Shown here piece after piece: positions 54,651 through 63,763 of a stretch of DNA of 64,000 bases. Where the stretch lies: the NCBI RefSeq assembly GCF_030066895.1, contig NZ_JASJAV010000004.1, positions 1-64,000 of the forward strand. Direction: 5' to 3'. Source of the DNA: Breoghania sp. GTDB taxonomy: Bacteria > Pseudomonadota > Alphaproteobacteria > Rhizobiales > Stappiaceae. A model generated the notes under the pieces. The model worked only from the letters and a program-made list of their open reading frames with translations. It was not told the origin of the DNA and ran no database searches. Each line of letters begins with the position of its first letter. Position 1 is the stretch's first letter. The position numbers and the translations under genes are program-made.

Positions 54651-55385
54651 ATGAAGAATGGTTCGATGCAGAAAATTGCCGTGGTTACCGGTGCAAACAA
54701 AGGTATCGGCTTTGAGATCGCGAAGCAGTTATCCGAACTCGGAATACGCTGCTATCTCGCCGGACGCAGCGAGGAACGCGTTGCGTCGGCCATATCGCTG
54801 CTCCGGTCTCAAAAACTGGATGTCCACCCCTTGGTGCTGGATATCACGTCGCAACAGAGCGTGAGCGACGCACCAAGGTACCTGTCTGACCGGGAAGACA
54901 AGCTCGATATCCTCGTGAACAACGCAGCGATCTGCATCGAGCCGTACGGTACTCGGCCGTCCGAGCAGGTGCTGGATGACTGGCGGATAACGTTCGACAC
55001 CAACATCTTCGGTACTGTCGCGGTAACGCAGGTCTTCCTGCCCTTGTTGAGGAAATCTCCGGCGGGGCGGATCGTCAACGTGTCGAGCCTTCTCGGTTCG
55101 ATCACCACCCACAGCGATCCGGCCTCGTATGCCTATAGCGATATGTTCAAGTCGCTGCCTGCCTACAGCGCATCGAAGAGCGCTCTCAATTCCTGGATCG
55201 CTCACCTTGCCTACGAATTGCGGAAAACGCCGATCAAGGTGAATTCCGCGCATCCCGGTTATACGCGCACGGACATGAACTACGGAGAGGGGGATCAACC
55301 CGCCGCCGAAGGTGCCCGAACAAGCGTTCGATTGGCCTTGCTGGGCGACGGCGGCCCGAAAAGCATCGAAAAATATTTGGAGTAG
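54651..55385 (+). CDS. Short-chain dehydrogenase/reductase (carbonyl-reductase type) upstream of dcsG
   Basis: The 244-residue SDR has the NADP motif VVTGANKGIGFEIAKQL with a following Arg (GRSEER), the structural motif NNAA, Ser in NVSSLLGS and YSASK for catalysis. The extra segment before the Tyr (THSDPASYAYSDMFKSLPA) resembles plant and animal carbonyl reductases. ATG 54651 is used; 54663 is also possible. The frame is intact. It lies 3 bp from the dcsG start, so they share a transcript. The known Streptomyces D-cycloserine cluster has no such enzyme, and its role here is unknown. Confidence 0.85.
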   Translation: MKNGSMQKIAVVTGANKGIGFEIAKQLSELGIRCYLAGRSEERVASAISLLRSQKLDVHPLVLDITSQQSVSDAPRYLSDREDKLDILVNNAAICIEPYGTRPSEQVLDDWRITFDTNIFGTVAVTQVFLPLLRKSPAGRIVNVSSLLGSITTHSDPASYAYSDMFKSLPAYSASKSALNSWIAHLAYELRKTPIKVNSAHPGYTRTDMNYGEGDQPAAEGARTSVRLALLGDGGPKSIEKYLE

Positions 55386-55388
55386 GAA

Positions 55389-56322
55389 ATGAAGGTCATC
55401 GCTCTTGTGATGGATGATGCGAGCCTGCCCGTTGATTACGACATGGATTGTCTTCAGGCGTCTTGTGAAAAACTTGCCTTGCCGGTCACGATACAGCGTT
55501 GGGACGCCCCCCGCGGTCGACTGGGCGTCGTACTCCATGGTACTGCTCCGGTCCCCGTAGAGCTACACGGAGCGACTGCAGGATTTTATCGCGTGGTTGT
55601 CTCGGTGGGTCTCGAAAGTGACCATGCTTGAGAACCCCTTGGAAGTCGTGGAGTGGGGGTTGGACAAGCACTATCTTTCCGATCTCGACGCCTACGGTAT
55701 TCCGATAGTGCCGACCTATTTCGTCGAACCGAAAGCGACAGACGCGATCGGGGAGCTGAAAGACTTCTTTGATCGTTACCCCAGGTCCCGCGAATTTGTC
55801 GTAAAGCCTTCGGTCGGAGCCTATTCCAGAGATGTGCTTCGCTTCACGCGCGATCAGCTTTGGGATGAGGAAAAGCATGTTGCCGCTCTTCATCGTCTGG
55901 GGGCTGTGGCGCTCATACAGCCTTATCTCGGGTCCATCGAGGTTCTCGGTGAGACGGACCTCATCTTCTTTAACGGATCTTTCAGCCATGCCATCCGCAA
56001 GGGGGCGTTGCTCGATGCTGATGGTACGGTGAATGCGCCGACGGCAAATTTCCGTCAGAGCCGGATGCCCGGCGATGATGAAATCGCGCTTGCAACCGAC
56101 GCCCTGATCGCGACCGGGAAGATCGTTTCAGAGATCTCCGAGTTGTTGTACGCGCGCGTCGATCTCGTGAAAGACGATGCCGGAAACCCGATCTTGCTCG
56201 AAATGGAAATATCGGAACCCTTGTTGAGCCTGCCCTTCTGTGAAGGGAGCGCGGACAGGTTCGCACAGGCGATTTCCGAGCGCTTCAAGGCCTATCAGCG
56301 CCTCGAGCTCATTTCCGTATGA
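55389..56322 (+). pseudogene. dcsG: ATP-grasp ligase, O-ureido-D-serine cyclo-ligase (DcsG) homologue, broken
   Basis: DcsG closes the isoxazolidinone ring of D-cycloserine from O-ureido-D-serine with ATP. From ATG 55389 the N-terminus reads VIALVMDDASLPVDYDMDCL. In the C run at 55507-55512 the frame is lost. In the next frame the family sequence goes on as AVDWASYSMVLLRSP, TAG at 55558-55560 (a Trp position in the family's RSPWSYTER), then FIAWLSRW and the ATP-grasp body (LDKHYLSDLDAYGIPIVPTYFVEP, EFVVKPSVGAYSRDV, LIFFNGSFSHAIRKG, LLEMEISEPLLSLP). The assignment rests on this pattern and on the neighbours dcsA, B, D, E and J. Confidence 0.82.
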
Positions 56323-61629: not shown

Positions 61630-62571
61630 ATGCGCAACCAGATAAGAGTAGTAAATATAACTATTTTAAATTCCATTTTCGACACGACCGGCCGCACGCC
61701 GATCGTCCGCCTGAACCACATCGCGCCCAAACACGTTGAAGTCTACGCCAAGGTTGAGGCCTTCAATCCCGGCGACACGATCATCGAATGCACGTCGGGC
61801 AATTTCGGCATCGCGCTGGCGGTGGTTGCCGCTGCGCGGGGGTACAAGTTCGTTGCCGTCATGGGCGACAGATATTCGGTGGAGCGGCGCAAGCTGATCC
61901 GGGCTTATGGTGGCAAGGTCATTCTGTTCCCCAGCGAATTGGGCAGCAACGGCGGAAACAAGATCGCCGACGAATTGGCCGAGCGCTACGGCTGGTTCCG
62001 ATCTCGTCAGTTCGACAACCCGGCGAACCCGGAATTCCACCGCATGACGACGGCATCCGAGATCCTCAGTGATTTCGCAAGCCGACGGTTCGACTATTTC
62101 GTGACCGGCTTCGGGACCAGCGGCACCCTGACTGGCGTCGGCCAGATGCTCAAGACGGTGCGCCCTGATGTGCGGATCGTCACGACTGAGCCGGCGAATA
62201 CCGCGATCCTTCAAGACGGGGTCTGGAATATCCACGAAATCCAGGGGCTCGCGCCCAACTTCATGCCGAGCGTCATGGATCGGACCGTGATCGACGAACT
62301 GCGCAAGATCGACGATGTGGCCGCAAGGGACATGTCGCGCCGTCTTTCCTCCGAGGAAGGCATCTTTATCGGGATTTCCGCAGGTGCGACCGTTGTCACG
62401 GCCCTCGAAGTGGCTGAAACTGCCTCCGAGGGCTCGGTCATTCTCGTGATGATGCCGGATACTGGAGAGCGCTATCTCTCGACTTTCTTTTTCGACAATT
62501 TGAACGAGGGTTCGGATGACAAATGGCTCGCAGCGTTCGAATCTGAGCGCTTACTCGAACCGGCAAAGTGA
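61630..62571 (+). CDS. dcsD: Cysteine-synthase-fold O-ureido-L-serine synthase (DcsD) homologue lacking the PLP lysine
   Basis: DcsD joins hydroxyurea to O-acetyl-L-serine. The frame shows FDTTGRTPIVRLNHIAP, VYAKVEAFNPG, then directly DTIIECTSGNFGIALAVVAA, FVAVMGDRYSVERRKLIRAYGG, FVTGFGTSGTLTGVGQML and IFIGISAGATV. In the whole fold family FNPG is followed by GSVKDR, with the Lys that binds PLP, and about 20 more residues before PGDTI. That piece, about 24 residues, is gone in frame at about 61770, probably by recombination between the two Pro-Gly codons. The protein cannot bind PLP. The native start may have been the codon now ATA at 61657. Confidence 0.85.
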   Translation: MRNQIRVVNITILNSIFDTTGRTPIVRLNHIAPKHVEVYAKVEAFNPGDTIIECTSGNFGIALAVVAAARGYKFVAVMGDRYSVERRKLIRAYGGKVILFPSELGSNGGNKIADELAERYGWFRSRQFDNPANPEFHRMTTASEILSDFASRRFDYFVTGFGTSGTLTGVGQMLKTVRPDVRIVTTEPANTAILQDGVWNIHEIQGLAPNFMPSVMDRTVIDELRKIDDVAARDMSRRLSSEEGIFIGISAGATVVTALEVAETASEGSVILVMMPDTGERYLSTFFFDNLNEGSDDKWLAAFESERLLEPAK

Positions 62572-62586
62572 CGGGTGGGTGGTTCG

Positions 62587-63763
62587 ATGACGGGTTTAAG
62601 CTCACCACATCCGACACGTGAGATCGTTCCTGTTTCGACGCATTTTGTGAATTTGCCGGATGGCTTCAAGTTGAAGTGCGGCGGAGAATTACAGCAGGCG
62701 CGGATGGCCTATGAGACTTGGGGACGGCTGTCGCCGGCGCGTGACAACGCGGTTCTCATCCTGAGCGGGCTTTCCGCCAGCGCCCATGCGGCCTCGCATG
62801 GGCACGACAACACCCCCGGTTGGTGAGAGAAAGTGGTTGACCCGGGCAAGTCGGTTGATACGGACCGGTGGTACGTCATTTGCGTGAATGCGCTCGATTT
62901 GCGTGAATGCGCTCGGCGGGTGTTTCGGGTCGACGGGGCCGGCCTCGATCAACCCGGAGACGAGTCGAGAATATCGGCTCGATTTCCCCGATCTCAGCAT
63001 TGAGGACATTGTCGATGCTGCGGCGATCGTTCTGCATGTGTTGGGGGGCGAGCAGCTTCCTGTCTGGTCGATGCCTCGATGGGGGGAGGGGTGAGTGCGC
63101 TGTCGCTGCTCAGTCGCCATCCCGATTGTGCGCGCAGTCATATCAACATTTCGGGTGCTGCTCATGCGACAACCTTTGCGATCGCGTTGCGATCGCTTCA
63201 ACGTCAGGCAATCTGTCGTGATCCGGGGTGGCGACGAGGCAGGTACACGGATCTGCTCGATCTGCGCAACGGTATGGCCATGGCACGAATGTTGGGCACG
63301 CTGAGCTACCGGTCGGCCGATGAGTTCCAGTTGCGGTTCGGACGCGATTCTGCCGGTGAATGGGATACCTGGGAACAAACCGGCGAGTTCTGCGACCCGG
63401 AATTCATGATCGAAAGCTACCTTCGGCATCAGGCGAACGGGTTCGTCGACTCCTACGATCCCAATTTGTTATCTCTATCTCAGTCGGGCGCTTGATCGTT
63501 TCGATCTAAGCGAGGCTGTGGTCGAAGATCTCGATCTCGCATTGTCGTGCATCCGGTTGCAGAACGCCCTTGTCATCGGGGTGGAGTCGGACTTGCTGTT
63601 TCCGATTTCGCAGCAACAGGCCATTGCGGATGGTCTGAACCTCGGCAACGTGGATGCCGAGATGGTTCGCCTGACTGCAATCCAGGGACACGACACGTTT
63701 CTCGTCGCCCTCGAGGGCGTTGGGCGGCCAATCAGGCAGTTTCTCGCATCCGTCGACGGCTAA
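62587..63763 (+). pseudogene. dcsE: Homoserine O-acetyltransferase-fold serine O-acetyltransferase (DcsE) homologue, broken
   Basis: DcsE makes O-acetyl-L-serine for DcsD. ATG 62587 begins the alpha/beta-hydrolase MetX fold: LPDGFKLKCGGELQQARMAYETWG, AVLILSGLSASAHA. TGA at 62824-62826 follows DNTPGW (Trp likely). A 19-bp tandem duplication at 62878-62915 shifts the frame within YVICVNALGGCFGSTGPAS. Later blocks in changing frames show the nucleophile DASMGGGVSALSLLSRHP, then RALDRFDLSEAV and the catalytic His in IQGHDTFLVALEG. It stops at 63763, right beside the truncated TRAP gene. Confidence 0.85.
62878..62915 (+). repeat. Perfect 19-bp tandem duplication in dcsE
   Basis: Units 62878-62896 and 62897-62915 are identical. 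Removing one restores the frame through the conserved VNALGGCFGS segment. Confidence 0.95.

Follow-up and report, generated by a model that had tools for sequence, protein, structure and literature searches.

A disabled dcs-type cluster in a Breoghania genome, probably of lateral origin and a composite of two clusters

The dcs pathway and its counterpart in the window

The window, a 64,000-nucleotide stretch of a Breoghania sp. contig, shares homologues of DcsA, DcsB, DcsD, DcsE and DcsG with the dcs cluster of Streptomyces lavendulae. By analogy with S. lavendulae, DcsA and DcsB would generate hydroxyurea from arginine, and DcsE would convert serine to O-acetyl-L-serine. DcsD would join these two products into O-ureido-L-serine, which DcsG would cyclise; the predicted product is L-cycloserine. 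An SDR oxidoreductase lies beside DcsG in the window, as in clusters related to that of S. lavendulae. The window differs in its gene order, in the failure to find DcsC, and in carrying two MocR regulators, an extra YggS, a DMT exporter and an MFS transporter; its DcsA, DcsB, DcsE and DcsG genes are broken, and its DcsD has lost a lysine. The features, with lesions called by alignment against intact relatives, are as follows:

4917..5853, strand not assigned: second MocR-MFS fragment, more degraded, 81% DNA identity in two stretches
51747..53206, minus strand: MocR-type regulator 1, pseudogene spread over two or more frames, with alignment stops at 52582, 52570 and 52319
53177..54311, plus strand: MFS transporter, pseudogene in three frames, stops at 53441 and 53876
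54642..55385, plus strand: SDR oxidoreductase (PF00106), open
55389..56322, plus strand: dcsG, O-ureidoserine cyclo-ligase of the ATP-grasp type, pseudogene with its frame broken near 55.51 kb and a stop at 55558
56309..57843, minus strand: MocR regulator 2, pseudogene, frame break near 57.39 kb
57949..58719, plus strand: YggS/COG0325 paralogue, open, TIGR00044 at 160 bits
58803..59632, plus strand: dcsB, N-omega-hydroxy-L-arginine hydrolase of the arginase fold, pseudogene with its frame broken near 59.19 kb
59806..60609, plus strand: dcsA, YqcI/YcgG heme protein, pseudogene carrying three stops (59863, 60133, 60148) and a 10-residue gap
60611..61537, plus strand: EamA/DMT exporter (PF00892), open
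61630..62571, plus strand: dcsD, O-ureido-L-serine synthase, frame open, with an in-frame loss of 24 codons at 61774 and predicted dead
62575..63763, plus strand: dcsE, L-serine O-acetyltransferase, pseudogene carrying two stops (62824, 63001) and with its frame broken near 63.46 kb

The original prediction of a decayed dcs-type cluster in an alphaproteobacterium, with the five Dcs homologues gathered within 9 kb, is borne out by Pfam and PDB matches, in which Dcs structures outscore arginases, cysteine synthases and homoserine acetyltransferases. The DcsD reading frame best matches O-ureido-L-serine synthase (3x44, 483 bits, versus at most 249 for cysteine synthases), and a piece of DcsB best matches N-omega-hydroxy-L-arginine amidinohydrolase (6lug, 155 bits, versus 34 for arginase). 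The best match of the DcsE piece is 3vvm/3vvl (127 bits, versus 57 for the next homoserine acetyltransferase); 3vvm is labelled homoserine O-acetyltransferase in its file, and we take it to be S. lavendulae DcsE. The DcsG piece matches DcsG itself (6jil, 210 bits; the sole other row reaches 13 bits). The two DcsA pieces match Pfam YqcI_YcgG (PF08892) at 28 and 102 bits against a cut-off of 27, and the larger also matches AglA weakly (39 bits).

Trees place DcsB and DcsD inside Dcs clades with full support, outside the arginase-family and cysteine synthase outgroups. DcsB falls in a 9-row clade (of 36) with Sulfitobacter and Thalassobius at 100/100; DcsD joins sequences of roseobacter type in an 8-row group (of 29) at 100/99, the two cysteine synthase outgroups being set apart at 100/100. 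DcsG belongs to a 7-row clade (95/88) of DcsG-like proteins, whose sister comprises Tateyamaria and P0018 (9 of 30 rows, 87/91).

The exporter, described beforehand as DcsJ-like, is confirmed as a member of the EamA family, the level to which it was checked; used as a query against the EamA genes of Streptomyces loci, it finds no match at 1e-4. The SDR had been regarded as an addition to the pathway, but it is a standard component, present in 28 of 32 dcs-type loci holding DcsD, with its usual place between dcsE and dcsG, presumably the position of DcsF.

Intact relatives and the origin of the two parts

From MocR 2 to DcsE the window is collinear with Sulfitobacter sp. F26204 (locus L001) and Thalassobius sp. 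Cn5-15 (locus L002). In both, an intact 8.9-kb island carries MocR-YggS-DcsB-DcsA-DMT-DcsD-DcsE in the order and on the strands seen in the window. An M20 gene of the hydantoinase/carbamoylase family follows DcsE, and the island ends 46 bp after it. The cassette has no SDR or DcsG. In the window an SDR-DcsG pair lies upstream, and a search at 1e-10 across the window and the 20 kb beyond it gives no M20 match. The DcsG query at 1e-10 finds nothing in either genome, the same query being positive in three of the six genomes asked. Identity to the Sulfitobacter proteins is 61% and 49% for MocR 2 in its two frames and 49% for DcsA; the exporter is 75% identical to its counterparts in both genomes. 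The Sulfitobacter MocR, the intact relative of MocR 2, passes the NCBIfam PdxR cut-off and is thus PdxR-like. An operator shared by MocR and YggS cannot be called from the three spacers, which align too poorly. The second part of the remnant (MocR-YggS-B-A-DMT-D-E) is a cassette of roseobacter type. The split in MocR 2 near 57.39 kb is an additional lesion, this gene not having been listed as broken before.

The first part (MocR-MFS-SDR-DcsG) resembles the cluster of an uncultured Tateyamaria sp. (L024) without A to E. Both have a divergent MocR/MFS pair and an SDR-DcsG pair; L024 carries A-B-C-D-E between MFS and SDR, whereas the window has 330 bases there, in which no remnant of A to E rises above chance. 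MocR 1, which has a GntR domain, is 45% identical to the MocR of L024, and the MFS is 55-64% identical to the MFS adjoining DcsA in L024 and 53-68% to that of Xenorhabdus L008. The lack of such a remnant counts against a Tateyamaria-type origin, and so does the SDR, whose 62% identity to the L024 protein does not exceed that to some Streptomyces (up to 66%). The fragment at 4917..5853 matches parts of the MocR-MFS pair at 52.8-54.3 kb. The genes of the originally proposed interval, 54651..63763, hold, but its start does not: the remnant begins 2.9 kb further upstream, with the broken MocR-MFS pair at 51.7-54.3 kb.

From 51.7 kb onward, the whole looks like MocR-MFS-SDR-DcsG joined to MocR-YggS-B-A-DMT-D-E. 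We consider it likely that this is a disabled, laterally acquired composite of two clusters whose enzymes would once have served cycloserine formation, with the L-form predicted. Other bacteria, such as marine roseobacters, are the likely donors. Of 397 sampled genomes of the host's order, two have DcsG at 1e-40: the host's own and one with a weak match. Against the two-part origin, no genome turned up in which all eleven genes stand intact in this arrangement; an intact version was found for part 2, in Sulfitobacter and Thalassobius.

A single ancestral roseobacter dcs cluster of unusual order could instead have decayed in place, with Sulfitobacter and Thalassobius later losing SDR and DcsG. 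SDR-DcsG directly abuts the second part, and the window-type DcsG proteins P0002-P0009 include one labelled as a Thalassobius/Thalassovita MAG. This history nevertheless appears unlikely: the two MocR genes are of different kinds, 45% and 61% identical to those of different clusters, the MFS and MocR 1 match the Tateyamaria-type cluster, and the roseobacter island stops just past its M20 gene without DcsG. Furthermore, none of 394 genomes sampled in the family to which the Thalassobius genome belongs has DcsG at 1e-60; this search yielded no positive itself and scored up to five candidates in the genomes it listed, the same query being positive elsewhere.

DcsB at 1e-60 occurs in 3 of 394 genomes sampled from the Thalassobius family (Thalassobius, Neomegalonema and G655) and in 1 of 62 genomes of the genus Sulfitobacter, that of L001 itself. 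DcsD has no match in the Neomegalonema locus (L080), nor in the 3.8 kb of the G655 locus (L168). One marker protein, taken from a congener, shares 86% identity with four Rhizobiales genomes and 78% with three roseobacters; Neomegalonema reaches 83%, Azospirillum 80%, and a Caulobacter MAG 77% and 89% in two pieces. No 16S gene was found in the window's genome, so the taxonomic placement rests on this one marker.

Among plasmids, matches to window-type DcsG (2 records), window-type DcsB (21 records) and the DMT (30 records) all fall below 60% identity. Of 38 DcsG pattern matches in viral contigs, none was confirmed. Pfam PF04371, tried as a candidate family, gave no match.

Extent and nature of the decay

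None of the core enzymes is intact with its catalytic residues. The gap in DcsD, a 72-base in-frame loss, removes reference residues 40-63, including K43, which we take to be the PLP lysine from the cysteine synthase family. The damage noted at the outset to dcsA, dcsB, dcsE and dcsG and to the DcsD lysine is all present. With DcsA, DcsB and DcsE disrupted and no catalytic lysine left in DcsD, the cluster is predicted to be inactive now.

Errors of sequencing or assembly in a functional cluster would be one source of such breaks, the genome being a 52-contig draft without a detected 16S gene, perhaps a MAG, in which breaks are common elsewhere too. We regard this as very improbable. Read errors do not typically remove 72 bases in frame, as in DcsD, or strike one gene at several places, as in DcsA and DcsE. 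Elsewhere in this genome long conserved genes have open frames (1023, 941, 691 and 519 residues), and so do the SDR, YggS and DMT of the cluster itself.

The cluster was most likely lost as part of a broader decay of this genome; damaged genes are not confined to the cluster. On contig C24, 34 orthologues were scored, of which 21 are intact, 9 broken and 4 partial; all 9 broken ones carry stops within the matched stretch. Nor is the pathway new to the class, since other alphaproteobacteria have open A-B-C-D-E-SDR-G sets, namely Azospirillum (L003 and L004), Tateyamaria (L024) and a Caulobacter MAG (L037). The window also does not hold the only damaged cluster of the class, because DcsD of Sphingobium L048 matches in two pieces 4.5 kb apart.

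Product stereochemistry and a possible branch

The original prediction had the route covered as far as D-cycloserine; the DcsC racemase that this includes was found neither in the cluster nor in the genome. The DcsC query has no match at 1e-3 in the window, and gives a single match of 34-36% identity, the level of DapF, in the window's own genome (34%) and in those of L001 and L002. The L024 genome has two matches, one of 50% inside the cluster and one of 38%. No DcsC match occurs in 20 of the 32 dcs-type loci within the stretch examined, some contigs being short. As the window's genome is 94.9% complete, a DcsC elsewhere may be missing from the assembly. With no DcsC found, the encoded product is predicted from the gene content to keep the L-configuration. 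In Xenorhabdus L008, the one DcsC match scores 207 bits, between cluster-type and DapF values.

The extra YggS might have replaced DcsC as O-ureidoserine racemase, giving D-cycloserine. All three clusters of the window, L001 and L002 type combine a YggS with no detected DcsC, and the window YggS matches PF01168, the alanine racemase N-domain fold. We think such a replacement improbable, as the cluster YggS passes the ordinary YggS model (TIGR00044, cut-off 106; 185.5 bits for the Sulfitobacter copy, which passes as well) and 18 further loci without DcsC also have no YggS match. PipY, a YggS family member, was unable to replace alanine racemase in Synechococcus (PMC5504682). A second, housekeeping-like YggS, open and 37% identical to the cluster copy, lies in the window's genome (G000:C24:222663-223313).

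The PdxR-like MocR together with the YggS paralogue would detect and buffer harm to the PLP pool, and the DMT and MFS transporters would serve export. For the Sulfitobacter and Thalassobius island we tentatively propose a mobile roseobacter cassette in which DcsA, DcsB, DcsD and DcsE make O-ureido-L-serine, an M20 carbamoylase in place of DcsG removes the ureido group by cleavage to yield beta-aminooxy-L-alanine, and the PdxR-like sensor and second YggS guard the PLP pool of the producer. Beta-aminooxy-L-alanine, the predicted cassette product, is a PLP-trapping amino acid. Since the window couples the same core to DcsG, the end module may, on this tentative proposal, be interchangeable. In the mostly open-access literature, no description of such a cassette was met, nothing titled on L-cycloserine biosynthesis appeared in searches with gene cluster, and several spellings of aminooxyalanine returned no paper; cycloserine with Roseobacter and gene cluster returned only a sponge resistance study.

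If correct, the proposal would add mobile cassettes of marine bacteria to a chemistry known from Streptomyces, suggest that two genera make a final product not yet characterised, and tie YggS, a PLP-homeostasis protein, to a pathway with a PLP-attacking product. The decayed copy in the window is a record of loss, not a working system. Loss of a YggS family member raises sensitivity to D-cycloserine (PMC5504682).

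Identity and lesions of the window genes

The window carries a well-supported remnant of a dcs-type cluster, with all the genes named in the original prediction present. Even as unmended pieces, they score higher against solved Dcs proteins than against ordinary families: DcsB 155 bits versus 34 to arginase, DcsD 483 versus at most 249 to cysteine synthases, DcsE 127 versus 57 to its ordinary family, and DcsG 210, its other matches not being credible. DcsA is recognised through two pieces that match Pfam YqcI/YcgG. The expected placement in trees is borne out for DcsD (29 rows, 100/99) and DcsB (36 rows, 100/100), which fall among roseobacter sequences within the Dcs clades and separate from their outgroups, cysteine synthases and arginase-family proteins respectively; in the DcsB tree the arginase branches are very long and the bootstrap had not settled. 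In the DcsG tree (30 rows, no outgroup), the window groups with the similar proteins P0002-P0009 at 95/88, with Tateyamaria next at 87/91.

Alignment to intact relatives, by which the lesions are defined, agrees with the claim that DcsA, DcsB, DcsE and DcsG are broken and that DcsD has lost its PLP lysine. SDR, YggS and DMT remain open frames.

DcsG: frame break near 55.51 kb; stop at 55558
MocR 2: frame break near 57.39 kb
DcsB: frame break near 59.19 kb
DcsA: three stops
DcsD: 24-codon in-frame gap, including the residue equivalent to K43 of Sulfitobacter sp. F26204 (L001), which we take from family knowledge to be the PLP lysine
DcsE: two stops and one frame break

Related loci and probable composite make-up

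A scan with the DcsB alignment yields 234 relatives, the best 80 of which were kept as loci. As predicted, the set is shared with other genomes: DcsD also occurs in 32 of these 80, accompanied by DcsG in 29, SDR in 28 and DcsC in 12. The three without DcsG are L001, L002 (Thalassobius sp. Cn5-15) and L005, whose contig ends just after the SDR start. Open A-B-C-D-E-SDR-G sets (DcsA to DcsG) occur in Azospirillum (L003, L004), uncultured Tateyamaria sp. (L024) and a Caulobacter MAG (L037). In Sphingobium (L048, 645-6123), the DcsD match falls into two pieces separated by about 4.5 kb, resembling a gene split by an insertion. No DcsD match is found in 48 of the 80 loci within the stretch searched (up to 10 kb per side); such DcsB-like hydrolases occur in Rhizobium, Microbacterium and others (e.g. 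L027, L032, L035, L045), and in Vibrio sagamiensis (L036) one adjoins a DMT 52% identical to that of the window.

The designation of the remnant as a D-cycloserine cluster founders on the racemase DcsC. DcsC is unmatched near 20 of the 32 DcsD-holding loci (e.g. L007, L016, L030, L033), several of them Streptomyces. A single match turned up in the L033 genome (40%) and likewise in that of L016 (37%), and the search of the L001 and L002 genomes gave nothing beyond a single 36% match. The product of clusters without DcsC may be the L-form or be racemised by other means.

The original extent, 54651..63763, contains its genes, but the remnant begins further upstream, with a broken MocR-MFS pair.

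51747-53206: MocR 1, broken; 45% to the MocR of the Tateyamaria MocR-MFS pair
53177-54311: MFS, broken; 55-64% to the MFS beside dcsA in Tateyamaria

The Tateyamaria order is MocR-MFS-A-B-C-D-E-SDR-G, and from MocR 2 through DcsE the window keeps the gene order of L001 and L002. We read the window as two cluster kinds side by side, the first stripped of its A to E, no trace of which was found between MFS and SDR. SDR, previously taken as an addition, is a standard member placed between E and G, present in 28 of the 32 loci; alone it cannot discriminate between the two origins. A second, more decayed MocR-MFS fragment lies at 4917-5853, about 47 kb from the pair at 52.8-54.3 kb, its DNA 81% identical to parts of that pair; its surroundings gave no match to a dcs core gene.

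The intact DcsG-less roseobacter cassette

An 8,866-base stretch, 94.1% identical between L001 and L002, starts just beyond the end of MocR and stops 46 bases after an M20 gene. Both loci have open frames for MocR, A, B, D and E, and putative transposase genes, recognised by eye, flank the L001 island. DcsG is absent from both genomes at 1e-10 (six genomes searched, three positive).

L001 12399-13652: M20 carbamoylase-family gene, end of shared island
L002 15056-16309: M20 carbamoylase-family gene, end of shared island

By NCBIfam (639 bits) the M20 protein is a member of the hydantoinase/carbamoylase family of ureido-cleaving enzymes, and its best PDB match is N-carbamoyl-L-amino-acid hydrolase (647 bits). 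Since the two islands are nearly identical, they provide a single event on which to assign M20 to the cassette. Window-type DcsB and DcsD also form three pairs with same-sized longest contigs (285062, 1190620 and 20557), and from these equal sizes each pair probably shares one contig. None of the three sizes is found in the 120 entries listed out of 3603 DcsG matches; this comparison, of sizes only, hints weakly at three further pairs without DcsG on the contig.

At 429.6 bits, the L001 MocR lies above the PdxR model cut-off of 320, and MocR-type regulators lie near 13 of the 32 dcs-type loci, across phyla, perhaps as sensors of the product via PLP. The cassette YggS passes TIGR00044; a separate second YggS, 37-39% identical, is found in the window genome, where its frame is open, and in those of L001 and L002. 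In a Synechococcus study (PMC5504682), loss of the family member PipY heightens D-cycloserine sensitivity, a raised PipY level gave no added resistance, and PipY could not stand in for alanine racemase. Given this combination, we only infer a guard or delivery role for the cassette YggS; a simple sponge fits poorly with the failure of overexpression to raise resistance.

Host, probable acquisition and decay

In a comparison of one congener marker protein, four Rhizobiales genomes stand at 86% identity, Neomegalonema at 83%, Azospirillum at 80%, three roseobacters and Sphingobium at 78%, and a Caulobacter MAG, in two pieces, at 77% and 89%. Judged by these identities of one protein, the window genome is most likely a member of Rhizobiales that received the cluster from another source. 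DcsB matches at 1e-60 or better occur in 2 of 87 genomes of the family, the window genome included; the other (G004) is only 38-39% identical to the window pieces.

The decay scan set 625 reference ORFs of two congeners against about 459 kb of the genome, window included. Of these, 77 matched, 43 were dropped (below 60% identity) and 34 were kept, all on contig C24: 21 intact, 9 broken, each with stops inside the matched stretch, and 4 partial. For 13 queries the best match was on contig C29; all 13 were among those dropped, and the scan therefore compares the window with another contig. ORF coverage of the genome is below that of the congeners, whose higher G+C content may explain part of the difference. 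The cluster's decay is most likely an instance of a more general loss. Its deadness is ordinary, and what gives it value is its composite make-up, together with the intact cassette lacking DcsG to which it points.

Elsewhere in the window, 878-2173 encodes an ATPase with a type III secretion (EscN) C-terminal domain, followed further along by a VWA protein (7545-8621) and a protein kinase domain (9771-10910).
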